Source of the DNA: Maridesulfovibrio sp.
GTDB taxonomy: Bacteria; Desulfobacterota; Desulfovibrionia; Desulfovibrionales; Desulfovibrionaceae
Length of the DNA stretch: 64,000 nt
Reading direction: 5' to 3'
NCBI RefSeq assembly: GCF_963677005.1
Contig: NZ_OY781616.1
Span: 2,799,001-2,863,000 of the forward strand
The notes beneath the pieces are model-generated. The model saw only the letters and a list, made by a program, of their open reading frames with translations. It did not search any database and was not told the origin of the DNA. The position numbers were made by a program, and so were the translations under genes. Every line of letters begins with the position of its first letter. Position 1 is the first letter of the stretch. Shown piece after piece: positions 4,112 to 60,613 of the stretch.

Positions 4112-4675
4112 ATGAACAAGACAAAAGTTGGGCAGCGCATCAAAACCTTCAGGGAAAAACAGGGACTCAGTATTGAGGATTTTTCGGAACGAACCGGACT
4201 GGGGCTGGAATTCCTTGGTGCGGTTGAAGAAAAGGACATGTATCCCTCGCTGGGCCCCCTGCTTAAAATTGCCAGGGCACTTGGTGTCCGCCTTGGAACT
4301 TTTCTGGACGACCATGTCAGCAAGGACCCGATCATCATAAAATTAGATGAGCGTGAAGAAGAATTTTCCATGCATTCCGATATGGAACACACGGCTTCCA
4401 TGAAATATTTCTCTCTTGGAAAAGGGAAAAGCGACCGCCATATGGAACCGTTCTTCATTGAAATAGAGCCGGAAGATACGGAACCGAAACTCACCTCCCA
4501 CGAAGGAGAGGAATTCATCATCGTTGTTTCGGGAAAACTCAAGGTGGTATACGGAAAAGAGGAAAGCGTGCTCCAGGCCGGAGACAGCGTTTACTTTAAT
4601 TCCGTTGTTCCGCACTACGTAGCCGCACACGGCGAAAAGTGCGACATTTACGCAGTCCTCTACTTCCCGGAATAG
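4112..4675 (+). CDS. XRE-family regulator with C-terminal cupin domain (first of two)
   Basis: A likely DNA-binding regulator with a small-molecule-sensing cupin. In 187 residues it has an XRE helix-turn-helix at about 5-60 ([25 protein letters not shown]) and a cupin_2 barrel at about 105-185 ([34 protein letters not shown]). The ATG at 4112 has GAGGGA ahead of it; an upstream in-frame ATG at 4076 lacks a ribosome site. The downstream acyl-CoA ligase starts 13 bases after its stop, so the pair is almost certainly one operon, and the same pairing recurs at 6410-8749. The ligand may be an acid or CoA ester handled by the ligase (inference). Confidence 0.88.
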
Positions 4676-4688
4676 GAAAGGCGGTTCC

Positions 4689-6335
4689 ATGGAAAAATCA
4701 CACCTCAGGGAGATTACTCTCGGCACACTGCTGGACGAGATAGTGGAAAACTATCCTGACAACGAAGCAGTTGTTTACGTTGACCGCGATTTCCGCCTCA
4801 CCTACCGCGAATTCGGTGAACTTGTGGATGAACTGGCCATGGGACTCATGGCTCTGGGCATAAAGAAGGGCGAAAAGGTCGCAATCTGGGCAACCAACGT
4901 GCCTTACTGGGTTGCCCTGCAGTTTGCCACGGCCAAAATCGGGGCTATCCTGCTGACCGTAAACACCTTTTACCGCACTACCGAACTGGAATACCTGCTC
5001 AAACAGTCCGAATGCGAAAACCTGGTCATCATCGATGGCTTCCGGGAAATAGATTACCTTGAAACCGTGTATGATCTGGTCCCGGAACTGAAAACACAGG
5101 AACGCGGCTACCTGAAAAGCGCCAGATTTCCGGATCTCAAAAGAGTTTTCTTTCTGGGACAGGAAAAACACCGCGGAATGTATTCCATGGCCGAGGTCAT
5201 CAACCTTTCCGCAGTTGTATCGGAAGAGGAATACCAGACCCGCCAGGACTCCCTTGATCCCCATGATGTGGTAAACATGCAGTACACTTCGGGAACAACA
5301 GGATTCCCCAAAGGTGTGCAGCTGACCCATTACAACATCGGAAACAACGGATTCTGGATCGGCGAAAACCAGGGTTTCCGACCGGGTGACCGGCTCTGTC
5401 TGCCTGTTCCCCTGTTTCACTGTTTCGGCTGTGTACTCGGAGTACTTGCCGCCATCAACCATGCCGCAACGCTGGTCATTCTCGAAGGATTCGACCCGCT
5501 GCTGGTCATGGCTTCCGTGGATCAGGAAAAATGCACCGCTGTTTACGGCGTTCCGACCATGTTCATCGCCATTCTCGACCACAAGATGTTCAACAGATTC
5601 GACTACTCTTCTCTGCGTACCGGAATCATGGCGGGCTCTCCGTGCCCGGTGGAAGTCATGAAGAAAGTCATGGACAAAATGAACATGAAGGACATCACTA
5701 TCTGCTACGGGCTGACCGAGGGTTCCCCGGTGATGACCCAGACCAGAATGGAAGACGACATCAGACGCCGGACCGAAAGCGTGGGCCGGGCAATGCCGGA
5801 AATCGAAGTGGCCATATTCAACCCGGAAACGGGCAAGGAGTGTGAACACGGCGAAACAGGCGAAATCTGCTGCCGCGGCTACAACGTGATGAAAGGCTAC
5901 TACAAGAACGATGAAGCCACGGCAACGGCCATCGACATAGACGGATGGCTCCATTCCGGCGACCTCGGAACCATGGACGAAGAAGGCTATGTAGAAGTAA
6001 CCGGAAGGCTGAAAGACATGATAATTCGCGGGGGAGAAAATATTTATCCTCGTGAAATAGAAGAATTCCTTTACACCATGGATGGAATTCTAGATGTTCA
6101 GGTTGCCGGCGTTCCGAGCAAGAAATTCGGTGAGCAGGTGGGAGCGTTCATCATATTGAAAGACGGCGTTGAAATGGATCAGCAGGATGTTGTGGACTTC
6201 TGCCGGGGCAAGATATCCCGATACAAAATTCCAAAATACGTCACTTTCATAGATTCTTATCCGATGACGGCGAGTGGTAAAATTCAGAAATACAAATTAA
6301 GGGAAATGGCCGCAGAGCTGTACCCCGATGCATAG
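4689..6335 (+). CDS. AMP-forming acyl-CoA ligase (FadD-like)
   Basis: Activates a carboxylic acid with ATP to an acyl-adenylate and then an acyl-CoA. The 548 residues show the full ANL-family motif set: P-loop [22 protein letters not shown], the hinge region [21 protein letters not shown] and [20 protein letters not shown], and the C-terminal catalytic lysine in [13 protein letters not shown]. Sequence style is that of medium/long-chain fatty acyl-CoA synthetases; the actual substrate cannot be read from sequence. The gene sits 13 bases behind its XRE-cupin partner. The second ligase at 7106 is of a different subfamily, so the two modules probably handle different acids. Confidence 0.9.
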
Positions 6336-49893: not shown

Positions 49894-51051
49894 ATGAAAA
49901 CCAGACTGATCCTGTTAGCAATTCTCGCTATTCTTTCAACCGCACAGCCTCTCTTTGCACAGCAGGACTGTCCCGCTGTTTTTTCGGAACGACTCGAAAA
50001 AATTTCAGGGATCAAGGCTGTGGAACAAAGTGATACGGGCTTCCTCGCCATACTGGACTCAGATAGCCGGACAACAAGCATAAAAATAATCTCGCAAATC
50101 AAGGCCTTAAGAAAAAAAGACTCCGGAAAATGCGATTTTTCAGGAACTTCGGTCTGTATGATGGATAAAGATTTCAACATGATCAAAGGCGGTATGGACT
50201 CCGGCCTGAAAAGAAAAGATATTGCCGGGCTCCTCTACAAATACGTATATGCACTGAACCCCGCTGAAGCCGAGGAAAACCTGAGAGGCTATGAAAAACT
50301 CTGCGAACTTGCACCGGCCAATGCCTACTATGCAGCCCGCAGGGAACACTACGGCAAGAGGGTCCGGCTTATAAAGGACCGAAGTGAATTCATAGCCGCA
50401 TGCCAAAAAATGGCCCGTGCGGACAAAAAAATTCTGGACCTGAAAATAAACAGAGATTTCTACCTGTTCATCACCTCCACGGAAACCCCGCTGGCCACGG
50501 CCGAACAATTTCTCGAAAAAGTGGCAAAAACCACACCGAGACCGGACAAGAAAGTATGTGTGATCGCTTATAATTCCGATATGGATAAAAGGGAAAGCGC
50601 TTGTCCGGCAGAGTACTCCGCGGCTCTCGCAGGAATGGAGGAAGAACTGCTCATCAGCCATGTCCGCCATCTGCCCGGATACATGATCCTGAAGAACGTC
50701 AACGGCTATGCGGCACTGCAGAAACTCAACCCGACTTTTAAGTTCTACGCCCAGAAGCATGCTTTTTACTCGGCCAAAAGGGACGGCCTTGAAAAATTCG
50801 GCAACCTGAACACCGCGACAGGAAGCAGTCTCTTTACCCGGACATCATCCCGTGGGGACACCTTTTTTGCCACGGTAAACCCGGCTGCGATCAAAGGCCG
50901 CTCACAATCAGCCAATATGCAGCTGTACAAAACCCTCGCCGATTATTTCCAGCACTGCGGCAGCCCGCTTTCAAAATGTGTGCTCAAAGATCCTGCAGGA
51001 AACACTCTGGGAACAATTCACTGCGGAAAGAACGGCTGTTCCTTCAGGTAA
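49894..51051 (+). CDS. Exported protein of unknown function
   Basis: 385 residues with a clear signal peptide (MKTRLILLAILAILSTAQPL then FAQQDCP). ATG at 49894 with AAAGAGGA. The mature part is basic and Lys-rich, with several Cys that could form periplasmic disulfides (QQDCPAVF, GKCDFSGTSVCMMD, KLCELAPAN, CVLKDPAGN and a final CGKNGCSFR). I recognise no domain. It lies downstream of the exonuclease and upstream of the small gene at 51211. Confidence 0.7.
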   Translation: MKTRLILLAILAILSTAQPLFAQQDCPAVFSERLEKISGIKAVEQSDTGFLAILDSDSRTTSIKIISQIKALRKKDSGKCDFSGTSVCMMDKDFNMIKGGMDSGLKRKDIAGLLYKYVYALNPAEAEENLRGYEKLCELAPANAYYAARREHYGKRVRLIKDRSEFIAACQKMARADKKILDLKINRDFYLFITSTETPLATAEQFLEKVAKTTPRPDKKVCVIAYNSDMDKRESACPAEYSAALAGMEEELLISHVRHLPGYMILKNVNGYAALQKLNPTFKFYAQKHAFYSAKRDGLEKFGNLNTATGSSLFTRTSSRGDTFFATVNPAAIKGRSQSANMQLYKTLADYFQHCGSPLSKCVLKDPAGNTLGTIHCGKNGCSFR

Positions 51052-51210
51052 AGCCGGGCAATACATCCTGCAGCTTCAGGTATACCTGTGGACTGACTGA
51101 ATACGAGCATTTTGAAAAGCAACAGCTTAAACCTTTGAAGGTATTTTTAGCTGGTACTCGCAACTGTTCGGGTATATCTTTCTGCAGCCTGAAAAAATAC
51201 GGAGGACCAA

Positions 51211-51486
51211 ATGCCCACTACCATATTTGATCTCGGACTTTCAGTTGAAGCCGTTTCCCTTTTTCTGCTCATCGAGGGGCTGGAAGGAAACAGGATAGAC
51301 CCGGACAAAAACTGCACAGCCAGACCCCAGCCCATTACTGTTGAAAGCTGCCTTGCCAAATGGAGTGGCGGCGAAGCGGACTTCAAGGCCGCACTTACCG
51401 AACTGACCGCTATCGGCGCACTTAAAAACGAGCATTCGCAACTGAGTATAACCAAAGCGGATACATGGAAAACAAAGCAGGTTTAG
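51211..51486 (+). CDS. Small conserved-looking protein of unknown function
   Basis: 91 residues, acidic to neutral, no membrane segment. ATG at 51211 behind CGGAGG, a strong ribosome site. The C-terminal half (LAKWSGGEADFKAALTELTA, IGALKNEHSQLSIT) could be a small winged-helix-like fold, but this is a guess. Its stop TAG is directly followed by the TTG start of the next gene, so the two are translationally coupled. Confidence 0.65.
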   Translation: MPTTIFDLGLSVEAVSLFLLIEGLEGNRIDPDKNCTARPQPITVESCLAKWSGGEADFKAALTELTAIGALKNEHSQLSITKADTWKTKQV

Positions 51487-52452
51487 TTGACTCTTTCCCC
51501 CGAAATTCTCTGGAACGGGCTGGGATGGCCGCTTATACGGCTGATCCTGTTCATAAGCCTGGGACTGCTGGTAGGTAATATTGTTGAAGGATTGCGCTGG
51601 ACAAGGGCCATGGGCCGTCTGGCTACTCCACTTATCCACGCAGGAAGACTCAAGGACATCAGCGGAGCGAGTTTCGCCATGGCCTTCTTTTCCGGAGTCG
51701 CGGCCAACTCCATGTTGTCCGAGGCATACGAAAAGGGGGATATCTCCGACCGGGAACTATTGATCTCCAACCTTTTCAACAGCCTGCCTACATACTTCCT
51801 GCACATGCCCACTGTTTTCTTCATCGCCGCCCCTTTCATCGGCAGCGTGGCCTTTGTTTATGTGGGACTGACCTTCATCGCGGCAATCCTACGCACCGGG
51901 GCCATTGTTCTCTGGGGCAGGATGACCCTGCCCCCGATAGAATGCTGCTCCGATGTGATGGGCAGGCTCAAGGAACAGGAACCGGGCTCATTTTCCGCAA
52001 TCATCACAAAGGCTGTCAAAAGACTCAAAAAAAGACTGCCTCGCGTTGTATTCATCACAGTTCCCATCTATGTCGCTTTCTTCTTTCTGCGCCGCTACGG
52101 AGTGTTCACCGACTTCCAATCCTGGCTGAGCGGCCACCTGTCTTTCCTGTCCTGGCTCAATCCGCAGATCTTCGGGATAATCGCTTTCAGCCTTGCTGCT
52201 GAATTTACGGCCGGACTGGCCGCAGCAGGTTCACTGCTAAGCGCAGGCACACTTGAACCGCACAGCATCGTCCTTGCCCTGATGGCCGGTAATATCCTCT
52301 CGACTCCCATGCGGGCCCTGCGTCACCAGTTGCCTTATTACGCCGGCATATTCAGGGGAAAAATCGCCCTCAAACTAATCCTCTGCAACCAGCTGCTGCG
52401 CACGACAAGTCTGCTTCTTATCGGGATTGTGTATTACATTCTCACCTTTTAA
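51487..52452 (+). CDS. Nucleoside-recognition (Gate) domain membrane protein
   Basis: 321 residues with about eight membrane segments. The region FAMAFFSGVAANSMLSEAYEKG, LISNLFNSLPTYFLHMPTVFF fits the Gate/nucleoside-recognition fold also found in SpmA/SpmB and FeoB; transported or sensed substrate is unknown. The TTG start at 51487 touches the preceding stop (TAGTTG), and no other start has a better ribosome site. Read with the 91-residue gene as a two-gene unit. Confidence 0.78.
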   Translation: MTLSPEILWNGLGWPLIRLILFISLGLLVGNIVEGLRWTRAMGRLATPLIHAGRLKDISGASFAMAFFSGVAANSMLSEAYEKGDISDRELLISNLFNSLPTYFLHMPTVFFIAAPFIGSVAFVYVGLTFIAAILRTGAIVLWGRMTLPPIECCSDVMGRLKEQEPGSFSAIITKAVKRLKKRLPRVVFITVPIYVAFFFLRRYGVFTDFQSWLSGHLSFLSWLNPQIFGIIAFSLAAEFTAGLAAAGSLLSAGTLEPHSIVLALMAGNILSTPMRALRHQLPYYAGIFRGKIALKLILCNQLLRTTSLLLIGIVYYILTF

Positions 52453-52511
52453 ACTCTGTCGCTGCCCGGTCGGGCCAACCTGTTTTGTTTTACTGGTTGT
52501 TTACTCCTTTT

Positions 52512-52526
52512 TGGGCTAATCTGCGC
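52512..52526 (+). promoter_or_regulatory. Weak sigma-54-like promoter upstream of fliN
   Basis: TGGGCTAATCTGCGC has GG and GC 10 bases apart, but the TT of the -12 element is missing. Transcription would begin near 52537, just ahead of GCGGAG at 52546-52551. Confidence 0.35.
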
Positions 52527-52557
52527 ATAAGTAAACAATTTGATAGCGGAGAAATTC

Positions 52558-52830
52558 ATGGCAGCCGACAACAGTTTGAAACGGATTCTGGACATCCCCC
52601 TTGAAATCAAGGTCGAGATGGGCCGCACCAAACTCCTGGTCAACGAAATAATACAGTTTGGACAGGGAACGGTTATCGAACTGCACAAACTGGCCGGAGA
52701 ACCTCTGGACATGTACGTTGAGGGACGCCTCGTTGCGCGGGGTGAACTTGTTGTCATCAACGAAAATTTCGGATTCCGGGTCACGGAAATAATCAAGCCG
52801 GAGGACCGGATCAAAAGTCTGGGACTATAA
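52558..52830 (+). CDS. fliN: Flagellar motor switch protein FliN
   Basis: 90 residues covering the SpoA/FliN C-terminal domain: ILDIPLEIKVEMGRTKLLVN, FGQGTVIELHKLAGEPLDMY, VEGRLVARGELVVINENFGF, RVTEII. It builds the cytoplasmic C-ring that sets rotation direction. The ATG at 52558 has GCGGAG six bases upstream; an in-frame TTG at 52540 is less likely. It lies alone, away from any other flagellar gene in the window. YscQ/HrcQ-type secretion proteins share the domain, but the sequence is FliN-like. Confidence 0.93.
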   Translation: MAADNSLKRILDIPLEIKVEMGRTKLLVNEIIQFGQGTVIELHKLAGEPLDMYVEGRLVARGELVVINENFGFRVTEIIKPEDRIKSLGL

Positions 52831-52856
52831 GAACCGCTGCAGACTGAAGTTATCAG

Positions 52857-52882
52857 ACCCCCGCATTACGGGGGTTTCTTTT
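52857..52882 (+). terminator. Terminator of fliN
   Basis: 7-bp stem ACCCCCG / CGGGGGT, 5-base loop, then TTTCTTTTT. Confidence 0.92.
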
Positions 52883-53164
52883 TGGCAAGGAGCCGCACTT
52901 TCTAGGCCGGATGTTTCTGACAGGTTCAACACATACCTGATCATCGCTGCCGATGTCGTGCTATAGAAATTTTGCAGCACTGTAGAATTTGATGCCCCGG
53001 ATTCTTTCTGGTAAACGCATTCTTCTTCGGCAGGCCGATTTCTTTTTCGAAACCGGTGCCGCATTTTAATCAGCTTAACTTCAAATTTATATACAACCGT
53101 CACGGAAAAGGCATACATGAGAAGTATGCAGGCCGTTGTTTGCAGCGCAGGAGGTTGCGTCAAA
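52883..53164. other. Intergenic region before the GT39 gene
   Basis: No gene seen. It ends in AGGAGG (53149-53154), which places the downstream start at the GTG at 53165. Confidence 0.5.
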
Positions 53165-54757
53165 GTGTCATCCCTATCCGAATCATTTTCCCGAAAGCCG
53201 GTATTGTGGGCTGTGGGCATAATCTTTTTCACAACCTTCGCCAGAATATGGTTTCTGGCAACCGGGCAGCTCAATCTGGTACAGGACGAAGCCCAGTACT
53301 GGGACTGGACCCGGCACATGCAGTTGACCTATTATTCCAAAGGTCCGCTCATTGCCGTAATTATTTCAACGTTTACATCCATTTTCGGCAACACCGAATT
53401 CGGAGTGCGCTTCGGGTCCGTCGTAGGGTCATTCATAACCCAGTTTGTACTTTTCTTCGGCATGGCGAAGATGTGGAAAAAACCTGCGGCAGCAATCTGG
53501 ACACTGATCATCTACAATTCCATGCCGGTCTTCCTTGCCCTCGGGATAATGATGACCACCGACAACCCGTTCATTCTCTGCTGGTCATGCGCTCTTTTTG
53601 CGCTGTATGATGCTTCCATCCCCTACCCTCCGGGCATAGACCGCGACTCCAATCAATCGCGAACCAGACCGTTTCTGCTGATTTCGTTCTTTCTGGCCCT
53701 GGGAATTCTTGCAAAATATACCATGCTCGGATTCATCGGCCTCTCAGTGATGTACGGTCTGCTGCTGATGCGCCGGGAAAAGCTTCCCAAAGGATTCTGG
53801 TTCAAACTTTTCGCGGCCCTCGCAGCCGGTGTTTTCCTTGGATTTCTACCGACCCTGATCTGGAATATACAAAACGGATTTGTCGGCTACAAACATGTCC
53901 TCTACCTGATCGGCGCATCCGGAAAGGAAGCTTCGCAACTGATCCGCTTTGACCGCTTTCTGCCCTTCCTCGGGGAGCAGATCGGAATGGCTTCACCGTG
54001 GTGGATGGTCTTCATGTTCATCGGCGGGATTACGGCCCTGCGCTTCATACTCGGCAGCAGGAATGACAACAGACTGGGGCTGAACAACAGGCAATCCGCA
54101 CTGCTGGCGGTTTTTTTCCTGCCGGTCTGGGCGTTCTTCTTTGTCTGGAGTTTTCACGCCAAGGTTCTGGGCAACTGGGCGGTAATCTCTTATGTCGGCG
54201 GAGTCATGCTGGCAGGCATAGCCTTTGAACACTTCTGGACAGCACGGGGCAGGTTCCGTTCCCTGTGGGTCTTCCTCAGTGTCTTGATCTTCCTGATTCT
54301 GCATTTCCAGAATCTGGTGCCGTTGCCGGACAACCTGAATCCCACTCACAGACTCAAGGGCTGGACCGATCTGGGACAGCAGGTCGCGGAGCTGGAAAAA
54401 AGCCAGTTCAAGGATCCGGACAAAGTCTTTGTAATGAGCGAATTATACGACATGACCGCCGCTCTGGCTTTCTATGTACCCGGTCAGCCGCGTACCTACT
54501 GCGCATGGATAGACCGGCGCATGAACCAGTACGACCTCTGGCCCGGCCCAGTAGACAAAACAGGCTGGGACTGCGTGTACGTGCTCAAGAACTTCAAGGG
54601 AGAACCGGACCGGGAGTTGGTAAAGATGTTCAAGCGCATAAGCCCGCCAATACACATCCAGACCACCTTCCGCGGAAAACCGGCCCGCAAGTTCACAATC
54701 TATCTGTGTTACGGTTACAACGGATACTGGCCCAAAGACCACAAACTTCGTTTTTAA
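53165..54757 (+). CDS. GT39/PMT-family membrane glycosyltransferase
   Basis: 530 residues from the GTG at 53165, chosen because AGGAGG lies 10 bases ahead; an ATG at 53117 is further upstream without a ribosome site. Ten or more membrane segments. The first periplasmic loop has LVQDEAQYWDWTRHMQLTYY followed by SKGPLIA, the PMT_2/ArnT-type acidic motif. A short soluble C-terminal domain follows (KAWT-like GWTDLGQQVAELEKSQ to the end). It transfers a sugar from a lipid carrier outside the membrane; donor and acceptor unknown. It is a different subfamily from the enzyme at 20632. Confidence 0.85.
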   Translation: MSSLSESFSRKPVLWAVGIIFFTTFARIWFLATGQLNLVQDEAQYWDWTRHMQLTYYSKGPLIAVIISTFTSIFGNTEFGVRFGSVVGSFITQFVLFFGMAKMWKKPAAAIWTLIIYNSMPVFLALGIMMTTDNPFILCWSCALFALYDASIPYPPGIDRDSNQSRTRPFLLISFFLALGILAKYTMLGFIGLSVMYGLLLMRREKLPKGFWFKLFAALAAGVFLGFLPTLIWNIQNGFVGYKHVLYLIGASGKEASQLIRFDRFLPFLGEQIGMASPWWMVFMFIGGITALRFILGSRNDNRLGLNNRQSALLAVFFLPVWAFFFVWSFHAKVLGNWAVISYVGGVMLAGIAFEHFWTARGRFRSLWVFLSVLIFLILHFQNLVPLPDNLNPTHRLKGWTDLGQQVAELEKSQFKDPDKVFVMSELYDMTAALAFYVPGQPRTYCAWIDRRMNQYDLWPGPVDKTGWDCVYVLKNFKGEPDRELVKMFKRISPPIHIQTTFRGKPARKFTIYLCYGYNGYWPKDHKLRF

Positions 54758-54770
54758 GACATCCATAATA

Positions 54771-54816
54771 AACACGGCGTTCTCATCCATTACCGGATAA
54801 GAATGCCGTGTTTTCC
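54771..54816 (+). terminator. Terminator of the GT39 gene
   Basis: 13-bp arms (AACACGGCGTTCT and AGAATGCCGTGTT, one G-T pair) with an inner ATCC/GGAT stem, ending in TTTTCCTTTC. Confidence 0.88.
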
Positions 54817-54973
54817 TTTCACGGTTCATCAAAAATCCATTTTTTTTAATTTTTTTTCTGCACCGCCCTTGCAGTCCGTACCGGCTTTCGGGGTGGTGCG
54901 GGCCTATTTTCATTATGATTCCACATAATTTGATGCTTGTTGTAGTATTGTGGCAGAAAGTTGTGCGCAGGGA

Positions 54974-55008
54974 TGTCATTCTTTGACATTTTTTGACAAA
55001 TAATGTCA
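54974..55008 (+). promoter_or_regulatory. Operator-like array of four TGTCA/TGACA half-sites, 10 bp apart
   Basis: TGTCA (54974), TGACA (54984), TGACA (54994) and TGTCA (55004) start at exactly 10-bp intervals with 5-base AT-rich spacers. The first two form the inverted repeat ATGTCA-TTCTT-TGACAT, the last two TGACA-AATAA-TGTCA. All sites lie on one face of the helix, just ahead of AAGGAG at 55010-55015 and the HTH gene. The regulator is unknown. Confidence 0.65.
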
Positions 55009-55032
55009 TAAGGAGTACATCGTAGTGTAATT

Positions 55033-55293
55033 TTGAAAAATCAGGACAAGTCTTTGACTCCCTCGCCTACACTCTACACGGTGCGTGAGATCGCTGACAC
55101 GCTGAGAATCCATCCCAGAACCGCCTACCGGCTGATTCAGGAGGGACGGATTCGAGGTATCAAGGTCGGCAGCCAGTGGCGTGTTCCGGAAAGTTCGTTG
55201 CTGGAATACATAGAAAACGGACTCACGGTACCGAAGAAGAAAAAGTCTGGAGATGACAAGAAAGGCCCTGAACAACTGAAACTGCCCATTTGA
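55033..55293 (+). CDS. Excisionase-type helix-turn-helix protein
   Basis: 86 residues. The winged HTH reads TLYTVREIADTLRIHPRTAYRLIQ, then EGRIRGIKVGSQWRVPESSLLEYI, the MerR/excisionase-like HTH_17 pattern, followed by a Lys-rich tail. The start is uncertain: TTG at 55033 is the only usual start codon near the array, but AAGGAG is 17 bases ahead of it, longer than ideal. Ten bases separate its stop from the next gene, so the two form an operon. DNA-binding regulator by family; autoregulation through the upstream array is plausible. Confidence 0.78.
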   Translation: MKNQDKSLTPSPTLYTVREIADTLRIHPRTAYRLIQEGRIRGIKVGSQWRVPESSLLEYIENGLTVPKKKKSGDDKKGPEQLKLPI

Positions 55294-55302
55294 GAAACAT
55301 CG

Positions 55303-55698
55303 GTGGACAAAATCATGAAAAAGAAGGCTGCCCTGCGTAGGGTGACTCTGGAAAATGATTTCGGAGGAGCAATTTCCTTTACCGGGAAATTGGAAAATGA
55401 ATCCCTGCATTTCAATGAAAATACAGGAGAACTTGTCTCGGAAAAAATCTACAGCACAGAGCAGGGAAGAACCGGCTACAGCGTAGTTAACGGAGACGGC
55501 ATCAAGAGGGAAAGAAGGGCCTACCTGCTGGAAGATCAGGGTGAAGTCTGCATGGTTTCAAACGGCTCCATCCTGCTTGGGCTGGAAACTGAAAACATGC
55601 TTACTTTCTTTGCTCAGGCACTGGCGGAAGAGGCGGAACTCTACTCCGAAGATGAAATGGAGACCCTCCAGAAACATCTGGACGCGGTAAACGAATAA
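55303..55698 (+). CDS. Protein of unknown function, co-transcribed with HTH gene
   Basis: 131 residues from a GTG at 55303; ATG at 55315 (GGTGG ahead) is equally possible. No signal peptide or membrane segment. The N-terminal half is strand-rich (LRRVTLENDFGGAISFTGKL, GRTGYSVVNGDGIKRERRAY), the C-terminal part is an acidic helix (ALAEEAELYSEDEMETLQKH). I do not recognise the family. Terminator follows at 55741. Confidence 0.68.
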   Translation: MDKIMKKKAALRRVTLENDFGGAISFTGKLENESLHFNENTGELVSEKIYSTEQGRTGYSVVNGDGIKRERRAYLLEDQGEVCMVSNGSILLGLETENMLTFFAQALAEEAELYSEDEMETLQKHLDAVNE

Positions 55699-55740
55699 TT
55701 TTCTTTTTACACGAAGTACAAAGCGTCGGTACACAAGAAG

Positions 55741-55772
55741 GCCCCGAGATTCTTCCGAATCTCGGGGCTTTT
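55741..55772. terminator. Bidirectional terminator
   Basis: Perfect 12-bp arms (55741-55752, 55757-55768) with TTCC loop, then TTTT. It ends the HTH operon and is also placed to stop the leftward methyltransferase transcript. Confidence 0.92.
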
Positions 55773-55813
55773 GCATGTCTTGCAGCTACTATGGGTAACC
55801 ATGGAGGAATAGC

Positions 55814-56608
55814 TCAACCCTGTTCCGAATCGTGAAAGCATTCAGGCTTCAGCTGCTTGCTTTTTGCCATGGTTGCTACCGGAGGGATATGCTTCCAGGC
55901 GTGCAAAGGATTCATGGGCCTGCGGTTGCTGAAATCAACCCGGCAGGCGGTGAATGCTCCGAAATACGGGGGATAGATTATCCCGTTCAACTGTTTCCAG
56001 GGAGTTCTGTCTTTCCAGCTCCACATCGGTCCGGGCAGTACCGAGCGGATTGCAGCCGGACTGTAGCCGCTGCCGTCCTTGATCATCCTGCGCATTTCAG
56101 ATGGAGAATACCAGTGTGCCGAACGAAGTGTGCTGGGAGATGCCCATGCCCACATCCTGCCGTGAGTGAAAAAATAGATGGAATGCCTGTTCAGGAACCC
56201 CACAAGCAGCCCCCCGGCGGAAACCCTCGCTGCTTCCGAAAGCATTGCCACGGGATCGGAGCAGAATTCCAGAACGGTCCAGAGCAGGGTAAAATCGAAT
56301 TCATTGTCGTCGAAAGGCAGGCTCTCGCCGTTGCACAGGTGCAGGGAGGCCCGGTTGCCAAGTCTTTTCCGCGCAGCCTCAAGCATTACGGGAGAACGAT
56401 CAACACCGGTGATATCAAAACCGCACCGATAAAGATGGTCGAGGAAAAGCCCCGTACCGCAGCCGATTTCAAGAAGCTTACGCTTGCGCCGGGGCCATGC
56501 GGAAATAAGGCTGTCCATGATCAGGACTTCCTGCTCCAGAGCAAAACCGCCCTCGGGAGTCTTGAACCAGGTATCGAATTTTTCAGCGTCCACGCCGTTC
56601 CAGACCAT
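55814..56608 (-). CDS. Class I SAM-dependent methyltransferase
   Basis: 264 residues from the ATG at 56608, where AAGGTGGA gives a ribosome site; 28 further codons upstream are open but not family-like. Motifs: LLEIGCGTGLFLDHLYRCGF (SAM site, about 45-64), GVDRSPVMLEAARKRLG, LPFDDNEFDFTLLWTVLEF and EAARVSAGGLLVGFLNR, as in ubiquinone/menaquinone-type Methyltransf_11 enzymes. The C-terminal region has WYSPSEMRRM and several aromatic residues. Substrate unknown. Confidence 0.85.
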   Translation of the reverse strand: MVWNGVDAEKFDTWFKTPEGGFALEQEVLIMDSLISAWPRRKRKLLEIGCGTGLFLDHLYRCGFDITGVDRSPVMLEAARKRLGNRASLHLCNGESLPFDDNEFDFTLLWTVLEFCSDPVAMLSEAARVSAGGLLVGFLNRHSIYFFTHGRMWAWASPSTLRSAHWYSPSEMRRMIKDGSGYSPAAIRSVLPGPMWSWKDRTPWKQLNGIIYPPYFGAFTACRVDFSNRRPMNPLHAWKHIPPVATMAKSKQLKPECFHDSEQG

Positions 56609-56738
56609 AACTTCCACCTTTGCATATGTTAAATCAGACACGCAGAGCAAAGCCCTATCCTTGTAGATAATCAGCATATGGCGACCGGTCAAACACTAAC
56701 CGCGTGAAACGGAATGTAACTGTCGACAAAAAACAAGT

Positions 56739-56768
56739 CCGCCCGGAACATCGGGATGTTCCGGGCGG
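56739..56768 (-). terminator. Terminator of ahpC
   Basis: Perfect 14-bp arms (56739-56752, 56755-56768); on the minus strand it is followed by ACTTGTTTTTTG, 86 bases past the peroxiredoxin stop. Confidence 0.88.
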
Positions 56769-56854
56769 GCTGCTGGGGTTAACGAGGAGAGGAGGTGTAG
56801 TTATCTAACGCGCCGACTGTGGGGTAGACTGTAATGGTCAACGCTTTTAAGGAG

Positions 56855-57484
56855 TTAATCTCCGTTAAGTTCTTCGTATACCTTTCCGACCAGCTTTTCG
56901 CTGGGGGTCAGAGTCTTGTCGCCGGGGGTCCAGCGTGCCGGGCAGGCTTCTGCCGGGTGATCCTTGAGGTAGACATTTGCTTCTACCTTGCGAACGAGTT
57001 CTTCGGCATTGCGGCCGACATTGTAGTAGTTGACTTCGGATGACACCAGAACCCCGTCAGGATTCACGATAAAGGTTCCTCTGAGAGCCTGCCCTGTGGT
57101 GTGGTCGTAGACACTGAAGAAGTCGGAAACTTCGCCAGTGGGGTCAGCAGCCATCTTGAACTTTACGTCCTTGAGCAACCGCTCGTCGTTCTTCCAGGCG
57201 AGATGTACGAACTTGGTATCCGTGGATACGGAAACCACTTCGCAACCGAGTTTCTGCAGTTCGGCATGCTTATTTGCAAGGTCGGCCAGTTCCGTCGGGC
57301 AGACAAAGGTGAAGTCTGCGGGGTAGAAGAACAGGACCAGCCACTTTCCGGCTTTCCTGATTTCTTCAAAGCTGACTTCGCAGAAGCCGCAATCTTCAGG
57401 GTCGTATGCTTCTACTGTGAAATCGGGAACTTTTTCTCCGATAGCAGCCTGTGTAATAACTTCTTCATAATTTTCACAACTCAT
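56855..57484 (-). CDS. ahpC: 2-Cys peroxiredoxin (AhpC/Prx1 type)
   Basis: Reduces peroxides. 209 residues: peroxidatic Cys62 in PADFTFVCPTELADLA, the catalytic Arg region, and resolving Cys in EACPARWTPG about residue 180. It carries an extra CGFC pair at residues 32-35 (YDPEDCGFCEVSF), which ordinary AhpC proteins lack. ATG at 57484 follows ACAGGAG. It has its own promoter and terminator. The AhpF-like reductase at 60735 is the likely electron donor. Confidence 0.93.
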   Translation of the reverse strand: MSCENYEEVITQAAIGEKVPDFTVEAYDPEDCGFCEVSFEEIRKAGKWLVLFFYPADFTFVCPTELADLANKHAELQKLGCEVVSVSTDTKFVHLAWKNDERLLKDVKFKMAADPTGEVSDFFSVYDHTTGQALRGTFIVNPDGVLVSSEVNYYNVGRNAEELVRKVEANVYLKDHPAEACPARWTPGDKTLTPSEKLVGKVYEELNGD

Positions 57485-57556
57485 TTTTTATCTCCTGTAG
57501 GTTTGAAATCTTTATTTCAATTTTCTTAATAGTAATGCTTCTCATTCGTTGATTTG

Positions 57557-57598
57557 ACACTAGGCAAATTTGATTCCCGTGTCAACGATAATCGTAAT
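57557..57598 (-). promoter_or_regulatory. ahpC promoter with Fur/PerR-like site
   Basis: On the minus strand TTGACA (57580-57585) and TAGTGT (57557-57562) have the ideal 17-base spacing. Immediately upstream, GATTACGATTATCG (about 57585-57598) resembles the NATWAT-type half-sites of Fur-family proteins, fitting control by PerR. TTGACAC at 57554 and GTGTCAA at 57579 also form an inverted repeat across the promoter. Confidence 0.55.
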
Positions 57599-57727
57599 CT
57601 TTCTCGATAATTTTTTAAATATTTAATATTTTAAACTTTATTATAAAGAGAGCATATAAAGAGAATATTGCCTTTGATGTTTTATTTGGTTAATTTGCTT
57701 TGATCACAAACATAATGGAGTTCCTGA

Positions 57728-60613
57728 ATGAGCAAAACGCATGGCTTTAAAGAAATATCACGCGAATACGTAGCCGAACTGAACGGCGAGGCCGTTATAT
57801 ATGAACATGAGAAGACCGGCGGAAGAGTTCTGTCGGTAATCAACAATGACGAGAACAAAACGTTCGGAATAAGCTTCCGCACCCCGCCTGCCAACAGCAC
57901 CGGCCTGCCGCATATTCTTGAACATTCCGTACTTTGCGGATCGGAAAAATACCCGGTCAAGGAACCGTTCGTCGAGCTGCTCAAGTGCTCGCTGCAGACA
58001 TTCCTGAACGCCATGACCTATCCGGACAAGACCGTATATCCGGTCGCAAGTCCCAATGAACAGGATTTCCGAAACCTTGTGGGGGTATATCTGGACGCGG
58101 TCTTCTTCCCGAACCTGACACCCAACACCCTCATGCAGGAAGGCTGGCACTACGTTCCTGAAAAAGACGGTTCCTTAAGCTACAAGGGAGTTGTTTTCAA
58201 TGAAATGAAAGGGGCGTACTCCTCACCGGACAGTCTGCTCTATGAACACTCGCAGCATTCCCTGTTTCCGGACACCACCTACGGACTTGATTCCGGCGGC
58301 GATCCGGAAGTCATCCCGGAACTGACCTTTGAGGAATTTATCGAATTTCACGGCAAATACTATCATCCTTCCAACGCATACGCCTTTTTCTACGGTGACG
58401 ACGACCCGGAACACCGTCTGGTGATGCTGGAAGAATACTTTTCCCGCTATGATCGGATTGATCCCCATTCCGAAATCAGCATGCAGACTCCTTTCAAGGA
58501 ACCGGTCTCGGTTGTAAAAAAATACGCCGCTTCCGACGATGATGCCCAGAAAGCCATGTTCACCATGAACTTCGGTATTTCACGCGGACGCGAGGCAATG
58601 GCTGATCTTGAATTGAGCGTGCTGGAGGAAATCCTCATCGGTCTCCCCTCCTCGCCTCTGCGCAAGGCCCTCAATGATTCCGGTCTTGGCGAAGATCTCG
58701 CCGGGGCGGGGCTTGAAAACGAACTGCGGCAGCTTTATTTTTCTACCGGTCTCAAAGGCATCAAGGCCGAAGACGGACCGAAGGTCGAAGAAATAATCTT
58801 CGCAACGCTCCGGGACATTGTGAAAAACGGAGTTGAAAAGGACGACATAGAAGCGGCGCTCAACACCATTGAATTTCAGTTGCGCGAAAACAATACCGGC
58901 TCCTACCCCCGCGGACTGTCGGTCATGATCACCGCCATGACTTCCTGGCTCTACGATGGACACCCGCTTGAATACGTCCGCTACGAACAGCCGCTGGCGG
59001 AACTGAAAGCACGTCTGGAAAATGGCGAAAACGTTTTCGAGCCGCTGATCAGCGAGATTTTTCTCAACAACAGCTATCGTTCCAGCGTTCTCATGATACC
59101 GGACAGCGAAGTCGGCCCGAAACGGGAAGCCGATGAAAAAGCAAGGCTGGACAAGGCTCGCTCAGCCATGGATGAAAGCGAATACCAGTCCGTGCTCAAG
59201 AAGGCCGCGGAACTGCAGGCGGAACAGGAAGCCGAGGACTCTCCCGAAGCTCTGGCGACAATCCCCAGACTCACCATTGCCGATATTGAAAAGGAAGGCC
59301 GGGAAATCGTCTGCGACCAAAAGGGCGACACCCTCTTTCACGATCTGGACACCAACGGGATCATGTACCTCGATCTGGCCTTTGATTTTTCCGGACTGGA
59401 AGACAGGCTTGTCCCTTACCTCCCGATTTTCGGTCGGGCTCTGCTCCAGACTGGAACCAGATCCACCGATTTTGTAACCATGACCAGACGCATGGCCGCC
59501 AAGACCGGGGGCATACATCACGCCGCCATCGTGACCCCCATTCACATGACCGATGATACCTGCTCCCGCTTTGTACTGCGGGCAAAGGCCACGACAGAGC
59601 GGACTGATGATCTGCTGGAAATCCTCTCGGAACTGCTGCGCGAAGCATCCCTTGATAACCGGGACCGCATCCGCCAGATAGTGCTTGAATCCAAGGCCCG
59701 TAAGGAACAATCCCTTGTGCCCTCCGGACACATCATGGCCGCGACCCGCATGAAAGCCCGTTTCAATGAAGCAGGCCTGATCAACGAGCTTATGAACGGC
59801 ATCTCCGGGCTGGAATTTCTGCGCAAACTGGCAGAACGGGTTGAAAACGATTTCGATTCCGTGGCCGCAGACCTCGAAGCTGTACGGACCGCAATCATCA
59901 GCAAGAGCACCCTGCTGTCCAACATCACCATGGATGGGAAATCATTCAAAGATGTTGAAGCTGATATTGCCTCCATGGTCGGACAGCTTCCCGCAGGAAA
60001 CAGCACCAAAGCACAACGGACTATGCTGAAATTTCCCGCAGCGGAAGGACTGTGCATTCCCGCTCAGGTCAACTATGTTGCCAAGGGAGCCAAAGTATCC
60101 GAGTACGGCTATGAATATACGGGAGCGGCCCATGTTGTCAGCCGCTATCTGCGCACCGGTTATCTCTGGGACAAAGTGCGTGTGCAGGGCGGAGCTTACG
60201 GCTCCTTCTCCATGCTCGACCGCACTTCCGGCAGCCTGAGCTTTGTCTCATACCGCGACCCGAACCTGACCCGCACCCTCGACACCTATGATGCCGTGGC
60301 CGACTATCTGTCCGACCTCAAGCTGAACAGCGATGAGCTGGAAAAAGCAGTGCTCGGCGGCATAGGCGAAATAGACAACTACATGCTGCCGGATGCCAAG
60401 GGCTATACCTCCATGGTCCGCCATCTCTGCCGCGAAGACGCAGCCTTCAGGCAGTCCATACGCGAACAGGTGCTGGGATGCAGTGCGCAGGATTTCCGTA
60501 ATTTTGCCAAAGCCGCCAAAGCCGTGGCCGAACACGGAGATGTAGTTGTGCTCGGAGGCAAAAAAGCCATGCAGGATTCAGGGCTCGCCCTTGAACTGAA
60601 GGATGTGCTCTAG
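57728..60613 (+). CDS. M16C metallopeptidase (presequence-protease-like)
   Basis: 961 residues, one chain holding two M16 halves as in plant/mitochondrial PreP. The inverted zinc motif HILEH is at residues 62-66, with the second zinc-ligand Glu downstream near EMKGAYSSPDSLLYEH (about 155-165). The family-typical HSVLCGSEKYPVKEPFVELL follows HILEH. The C-terminal half has RVQGGAYGSFSMLDRTSG, the substrate-binding Arg/Tyr motif of the second half. Degrades peptides of up to about 70 residues in related enzymes. Cytoplasmic: no signal peptide. ATG at 57728, single gene, with a strong terminator. Confidence 0.92.
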   Translation: MSKTHGFKEISREYVAELNGEAVIYEHEKTGGRVLSVINNDENKTFGISFRTPPANSTGLPHILEHSVLCGSEKYPVKEPFVELLKCSLQTFLNAMTYPDKTVYPVASPNEQDFRNLVGVYLDAVFFPNLTPNTLMQEGWHYVPEKDGSLSYKGVVFNEMKGAYSSPDSLLYEHSQHSLFPDTTYGLDSGGDPEVIPELTFEEFIEFHGKYYHPSNAYAFFYGDDDPEHRLVMLEEYFSRYDRIDPHSEISMQTPFKEPVSVVKKYAASDDDAQKAMFTMNFGISRGREAMADLELSVLEEILIGLPSSPLRKALNDSGLGEDLAGAGLENELRQLYFSTGLKGIKAEDGPKVEEIIFATLRDIVKNGVEKDDIEAALNTIEFQLRENNTGSYPRGLSVMITAMTSWLYDGHPLEYVRYEQPLAELKARLENGENVFEPLISEIFLNNSYRSSVLMIPDSEVGPKREADEKARLDKARSAMDESEYQSVLKKAAELQAEQEAEDSPEALATIPRLTIADIEKEGREIVCDQKGDTLFHDLDTNGIMYLDLAFDFSGLEDRLVPYLPIFGRALLQTGTRSTDFVTMTRRMAAKTGGIHHAAIVTPIHMTDDTCSRFVLRAKATTERTDDLLEILSELLREASLDNRDRIRQIVLESKARKEQSLVPSGHIMAATRMKARFNEAGLINELMNGISGLEFLRKLAERVENDFDSVAADLEAVRTAIISKSTLLSNITMDGKSFKDVEADIASMVGQLPAGNSTKAQRTMLKFPAAEGLCIPAQVNYVAKGAKVSEYGYEYTGAAHVVSRYLRTGYLWDKVRVQGGAYGSFSMLDRTSGSLSFVSYRDPNLTRTLDTYDAVADYLSDLKLNSDELEKAVLGGIGEIDNYMLPDAKGYTSMVRHLCREDAAFRQSIREQVLGCSAQDFRNFAKAAKAVAEHGDVVVLGGKKAMQDSGLALELKDVL

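Follow-up and report, generated by a model that had tools for sequence, protein, structure and literature searches.

The 64-kb window, by which we mean the whole stretch of Maridesulfovibrio DNA analysed, carries four half-sites, TGTCA, TGACA, TGACA and TGTCA, starting at 54974, 54984, 54994 and 55004 upstream of a small HTH gene. We lean towards reading this array as the operator over the promoter of a self-regulating operon. The HTH protein would bind it head to tail and would itself be modulated by the product of the adjoining gene, here termed the partner. All four half-sites occupy the positions of the original prediction, at exact 10-bp steps and with 0 mismatches. The full pattern occurs once in the window, likewise without mismatch, and 100 shuffles of the window yielded zero matches with up to 3 mismatches permitted; the array is far beyond chance in the window. 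At the level of sequence, comparison with related genomes adds the conservation of the spacing, the near-confinement of the array to one operon, its association with the HTH gene, a conserved tail on the HTH protein and the adjacent partner gene.

Half-sites and the probable promoter in the genus

The four sites, all given for the plus strand, are kept to different degrees in the 16 genus genomes aligned. Site 1 (54974 to 54978) is not conserved, with TGTCA in 1 genome, TGACA in 8 and other letters in 7. Site 2 (TTGACA, 54983 to 54988) reads TGACA in 15 of the 16 and TGACT in 1, site 3 (TTGACA, 54993 to 54998) reads TGACA in all 16, and site 4 (TGTCA, 55004 to 55008) is TGTCA in 15 and TGACA in 1. 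No indel falls between the sites, and sites 2, 3 and 4 are kept at 10-bp steps. Of these, site 3 is the strongest candidate for a half-site of the HTH protein. The predicted spacing is thus conserved in relatives, both within the genus and, as described below, beyond it. The arrangement of the sites as two inverted repeats did not withstand the same comparison, since site 1 varies across the 16 genomes and site 2 probably serves as the -35 element. A further block in the alignment, TGTTG-GT-TTGT-GCAGA (54938 to 54957, plus strand), is conserved upstream of the array.

To place the leader in the context of the bacterial family, 111 loci with a partner gene were compared, which had been chosen by hand to cover the genera, not at random, and were assigned to genera by hand. 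They comprise 61 loci with an HTH gene of type A, 16 of type B, 5 with a ribbon-helix-helix gene and 29 in which no such gene was recognised. The A and B labels follow a text pattern, and seven loci counted as A (L112, L179-L182, L184, L206) are members of type B or look like it; pooled counts are unaffected. Loci L135-L139 were left out because their genomes had already been counted. L113, which has the partner gene twice in tandem, was excluded from subsequent counts, which cover 110 loci, 28 of them without a recognised DNA-binding gene.

Sites 2 and 4 probably correspond to the -35 element and the -10 region of a promoter that the family has retained. An exact TTGACA or TTTACA with TG 15 bp further on was found in 95 of the 110 partner loci (54/61 of type A, 11/16 of type B, 5/5 with a ribbon-helix-helix gene and 25/28 others), compared to about 0.01 per locus in mononucleotide shuffles. 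As most partner loci have TTGACA whatever DNA-binding gene adjoins, site 2 is probably the -35 hexamer. The place of site 4 (55004 to 55008, plus strand) aligns in the other locus types with TGGTAAT, TGCTAG and similar sequences, that is, with the TGnTA of a probable extended -10 element. In type A loci a -10 element at site 4 is a poor fit, and two further candidates lie on the plus strand at 55016 to 55021 and 55026 to 55031. The first, TACATC, is a weak match read by eye, 17 bp after the TTGACA of site 3. The second, TGTAAT, would have site 4 as its -35 element; TGTAA is present in 16/16 genus leaders, and by eye TGTAAT is not consistently found in the leaders of other genera. A strict sigma-70 scan of the leader at this locus returned 0 promoters, with 1.2 in shuffles.

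Distribution of the array across the family

The step of 10 bp stands out among partner loci with an HTH gene. When TTGAC or TTGAT (at least 4 of 5 letters) was sought at offsets of 5 to 30 after TTGACA (at least 5 of 6 letters), a half-site lay exactly 10 bp after the hexamer in 68/77 HTH loci versus 1/33 loci without HTH. An offset of 20 bp occurred in 37/77 HTH loci and every other offset in at most 18/77. The array was found in the majority of loci in 12/16 HTH genera versus 0/10 others, and in at least one locus in 14/16 versus 1/10, with 0.00-0.09 per locus in mononucleotide shuffles. HTH loci without the array belong to genera g31 (4/4), g35 (1/1), g46 (3/4) and g15 (1/2), and the single passing locus without HTH to g54. 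Mapped on a partner tree, the HTH state switches only 3 times, which leaves 2 independent pairs; the association between HTH gene and array is therefore not significant after allowing for descent and may owe much to it. The half-site also differs with the type of HTH protein, the promoter-anchored copy being TTGAC in 40/61 type A loci and TTGAT in 10/16 type B loci. In genus g5 (L102-L105), the HTH reading frame extends up into site 4 with a peptide that by eye is similar among the four species, and the HTH start may lie inside the array there.

These counts bear on the simplest alternative, namely that the repeats are promoter and nothing else, with tandem TTGACA hexamers as alternative -35 elements 10 bp apart and no dedicated regulator. 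Since TTGACA is also the -35 consensus, part of the periodicity is possibly promoter sequence. The occurrence of TTGACA/TTTACA-15 bp-TG in all locus types assigns the hexamer to the promoter, and candidate -10 elements exist at three places. However, loci without HTH keep the promoter and have the spacer half-site in only 1/33 cases, type B loci mostly carry TTGAT, a poorer -35 element, in the spacer, and site 3 is invariant in the 16 genus genomes. We consider a promoter without a regulator unlikely.

Within its own genome of 4.26 Mb, the three-site core TTGACA-N4-TTGACA-N5-TGTCA has one exact match, the array itself. The search gave 5 matches in total versus 7 for a control pattern; of the other four, two overlap the array and two lie elsewhere with 3 mismatches. 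A regulon reading was rejected, as the genome is without a second good copy. The pair TGTCA-N5-TGACA, for which a genome-wide search had been suggested, is not special as a motif, with 3 places in the genome and 3 for the control.

Across the family, two exact array patterns, one for each HTH type, were searched in 149 genomes. Both derive from loci seen beforehand and are strict; the versions in most HTH loci are looser. The type A pattern occurs at 21 places (control 0), in 19 cases with the partner gene 0.3-0.4 kb downstream, and the type B pattern at 16 places (control 0), 16/16 within 0.9 kb upstream of the partner gene, as judged by comparing positions by eye. Together, 35 of the 37 places lie just upstream of the partner gene and 2 elsewhere (L224 and L240). 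Because the patterns came from chosen loci, the matches before the operon arise partly by construction. The informative part is the rarity of matches elsewhere: as sequence patterns, exact array copies are almost confined to the operon promoter.

Each of the two outlying places has its own setting. At approx. 1501-1526 in L224, three TTGACA hexamers at exact 10-bp steps precede another small gene, whose match to HTH_17 is weak (E 0.00048) and falls short of the cut-off; this is possibly the same style of control at another locus. At approx. 1501 in L240, an array resembling TTGACA-N4-TTGACA-N4-TGTGACA precedes a gene for a small membrane-like protein, and an integrase-like reading frame was noticed nearby by eye.

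The same data speak to the possibility that another regulator, for instance an OmpR/PhoB-like response regulator on tandem repeats, acts through the array. TGTCA-type tandem half-sites beside a -35 element resemble the sites of OmpR/PhoB-like proteins. Yet PhoB boxes are TGTCA direct repeats with a period of 11 bp, whereas the period here is 10 bp with mixed orientation, and an offset of 11 was found in 3/77 HTH loci, in line with the earlier attribution of the array to a protein other than PhoB. Moreover, the array accompanies the HTH gene, its own genome holds no second good copy, and exact copies are nearly confined to the operon, unlike a regulon. An unrelated regulator of this kind appears quite improbable. 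Binding by the HTH protein itself, as originally proposed, fits the array better because exact copies are almost confined to the promoter next to the HTH gene, and the comparison supports it in that the spacing is conserved and goes with this gene, though through few independent changes.

The HTH protein, the partner and their possible interplay

The HTH gene probably starts at TTG 55054 and not at 55033, which shortens the predicted protein from 86 to 79 residues (55054 to 55293, plus strand). The later start is more likely because 6 of the 15 same-genus relatives with the HTH gene have an in-frame TAG opposite the stretch after 55033, which appears in the leader alignment as AATTAGGA or ACTTAGGA just after the 55033 start. 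TTG 55054 is open in all 16 genus leaders and is preceded by a likely ribosome-binding site, AGGA (55043 to 55046, plus strand; AGGA in 15/16 leaders, AGGG in 1). The gene was found in 15/16 same-genus relatives searched, the exception being an 84%-complete genome. Its product contains an HTH_17 or excisionase-type DNA-binding domain above the curated cut-offs of PF12728 (E 9.8e-17; 61.4 bits, cut-off 27) and of TIGR01764 'excise' (54.7, cut-off 28.8). Weak HTH matches to the MAD1 and MamR models fell below cut-offs and were not taken as membership. It ends in the tail GPEQLKLPI (55264 to 55290, plus strand), identified by alignment and by a loose tail motif, which we propose as the partner-binding peptide. 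Two further HTH_17 matches exist in the same genome and could in principle bind the array.

Against solved structures, the single HTH sequence gave no match at E 0.01. A profile matched 4j2n (E 9e-5) better than 6amk (E 0.002) and 6ama (E 0.005), the first being Pukovnik Xis and the other two BldC (PMC11963761).

The designation excisionase-like reflects the name of the domain (TIGR01764) and nothing more; the two genes are widespread in the genus and across most of the family. The protein could be an excisionase left behind by a mobile element, with the array as its excision site, and the 'excise' and PHROG excisionase matches together with the profile match to 4j2n point in that direction. 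The presence of the gene in 15/16 same-genus relatives, beside a family-wide partner, argues against such a remnant, and by eye neither signs of a mobile element at the locus nor an integrase among the open reading frames from 50000 to 60000 were noticed. We regard an excision function as extremely unlikely. A gene annotated as 'excisionase family', Dde_4057, which may or may not be the HTH gene treated here, is described as changing strongly between copper conditions (PMC10533852).

The partner gene probably starts at ATG 55318, a start shared by its relatives, and would encode 126 residues (55318 to 55698, plus strand) instead of the 131 first assumed. It is followed by an inverted repeat (55741 to 55768), a likely terminator between the operon and a convergent methyltransferase gene, which is terminator-like on the minus strand (12 pairs) and partly on the plus strand (6 pairs). 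The terminator scan found 4 such elements in the region versus 1.2 in shuffles. The gene upstream of the HTH gene encodes a glycosyltransferase (53117 to 54757); its peptide RRMNQYDLW recurs in frames of L119, L121 and L122, just upstream in three other genera, so that by eye the upstream gene order is partly conserved. In L052, L055, L057 and L058, a small downstream protein resembles by eye a stand-alone glycogen-binding domain.

The partner is nearly always present in single copy. Of 149 genomes of the family, 115 contain it. A single-sequence search of genomes from other families of the order found it in 0/24, and a draw across the class found it in 172 of 247, every listed match coming from the same family. 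Among the matches listed, only one genome (G032) has two copies, in tandem at 4412-4708 and 4902-5366 of L113, and the interval between the two contains a short reading frame with the tail (seen in L061). Pfam, NCBIfam, PHROG and PADLOC gave no match to the partner. By these sequence searches it is matched in one bacterial family only, without recognised homologues. Two AlphaFold2 models (pLDDT 82.7 and 84.5) predict a mostly beta domain followed by a C-terminal helical part of lower confidence. For these models, neither Foldseek (threshold E 0.001) nor VIA-align (threshold Z 8) returned a match. A PUR-like arrangement of the modelled fold is only a lead: Borrelia Pur-alpha (3nm7) was matched by Foldseek with E 0.57 and TM 0.34/0.50 and by VIA with Z 4.9, rmsd 3.5 and 71 aligned residues, and unrelated folds score as high. 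Several candidates were set aside, namely Pur-alpha, lipocalin-like and DUF1849 rows for the fold, which are weak and not clearly apart, a best match to solved structures at E 0.17, which is chance level, and isolated matches among 19 partner relatives, one to Pallilysin (E 0.019) and one to RsgI_N (E 0.093), which were not taken as signal.

How the operon might be controlled can be sketched from these elements. HTH_17 monomers would line up head to tail on TTGAC half-sites along a single helix face, one monomer for every 10 bp. Site 3, between the -35 and -10 elements, would anchor them, with sites 2 and 4 on either side. Because site 2 coincides with the probable -35 hexamer and site 4 overlies the -10 region, the bound protein would exclude RNA polymerase and keep operon expression at a set level. 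Translated from the same mRNA, the partner would bind the GPxQLxLP tail and change the oligomerisation or release of the HTH protein, and the pair would thus form a split regulator. Several steps of this sketch go beyond the comparison and are inferred, namely that the HTH protein binds at the array, that it represses its own operon, that tail and partner make contact, that both genes share one mRNA, and any signal. The role of the partner is suggested by its adjacency and by the shared tail; the proposal that it modulates the HTH protein is plausible to this extent, as its gene adjoins and the DNA-binding proteins have the conserved tail in common.

Similar arrangements have been described in other bacteria. 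BldC of Streptomyces binds head to tail on direct repeats of 9 bp, and steric exclusion of RNA polymerase is put forward in that study as one obvious route to repression (PMC5859096). Like the HTH protein here, whose profile matches it weakly, BldC is small and without an effector domain, and direct repeats about one turn apart cover the promoter in both cases, head-to-tail binding being a proposal for the array (PMC5859096). The two differ in that BldC recognises 9-bp AATTxxxxC repeats at several targets, whereas the array has 10-bp TTGAC repeats at one known target (PMC5859096). A conserved tail and a neighbouring partner gene set the HTH protein apart from BldC. RdfS and phage Xis share the group 17 HTH domain and a filament-like mode of DNA binding, here proposed, but they direct the excision of mobile elements (PMC11963761). 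Nothing seen at this locus suggests recombination. In layout, WhiJ9/BldB9 of Streptomyces comes close: a DNA-binding protein binds direct repeats next to its own gene, with indications of autorepression, and a partner gene adjoins (PMC10294661). The likeness is one of layout, and BldB has ten paralogues in S. venezuelae (PMC10294661), in contrast to the nearly always single-copy partner. None of the open-licence PubMed Central titles and abstract starts listed described the pair studied here.

DNA-binding parts and the shared tail

In four genera (g3, g39, g48 and g56; 5 loci), the position of the HTH gene is taken by a gene for a ribbon-helix-helix protein. One of these proteins matches HicB above and Arc and ParD below the cut-offs, a second has no Pfam match, and the rest were recognised by likeness to these two. 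On the partner tree, the 5 loci fall on one side of a branch with a support of 88, below the starred level. None of them (0/5) has the 10-bp array; instead, a palindrome near AGACAGCTTAGCTGTCT immediately precedes the TTTACA of the -35 element in 5/5, imperfect in L134.

The tail is common to both kinds of DNA-binding protein. GPxQLxLP is conserved at the C terminus of the HTH protein and also occurs on the ribbon-helix-helix protein, and QLxLP is invariant in 11 rows of the HTH alignment A2. The loose motif, Q followed by L, F, Y, H or C, up to one residue, L or I, and P or F, occurs in 80 of the 82 loci that have a DNA-binding gene, 5/5 ribbon-helix-helix loci among them, the two misses being genus g15. 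As a control, 18 genomes were chosen, 9 with the partner and without an adjacent HTH gene, 3 with a ribbon-helix-helix gene and 6 without the partner. They held 13 HTH matches in 7/18 genomes, and the motif was seen in 0/7 frames picked at these control HTH loci, a weak control in which two frames are the same and two are maybe not HTH.

Type II toxin-antitoxin operons encode autoregulated pairs of a DNA-binding domain with a partner-binding tail and its partner, and they do so with differing folds. Two small adjoining genes, repeats over the promoter, a conserved tail and the occurrence of HTH and ribbon-helix-helix versions, one of them matching HicB, beside one and the same partner could all be accommodated by such a module, with a DNA-binding antitoxin and the partner as toxin. 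Unlike these operons, however, several genera keep the partner without a recognised adjacent DNA-binding gene; this applies to 28 of the 110 loci, where an antitoxin of another type or one encoded elsewhere is possible. The partner is also nearly always single copy in the 115 of 149 family genomes that have it, and it matched no toxin family in the libraries searched. A toxin-antitoxin function is very unlikely in our view.

Tentatively, and with the balance tipping slightly to the other side, the locus may be one instance of a family module in which promoter and partner are fixed and the DNA-binding part has been exchanged. The part next to the partner would be either of two HTH_17 proteins, a ribbon-helix-helix protein or absent, with a matching operator for each, and GPxQLxLP would be the shared plug coupling any DNA-binding fold to the partner. 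To us, this wider pattern is of the greater interest. The array, for its part, offers a small and defined test of BldC-like head-to-tail binding on 10-bp TTGAC repeats. If the family module is real, it would be a natural record of a regulatory circuit that changed its DNA-binding fold and its operator and kept its promoter and partner, and it would provide a lead to the function of a protein that 115 of the 149 family genomes searched encode.
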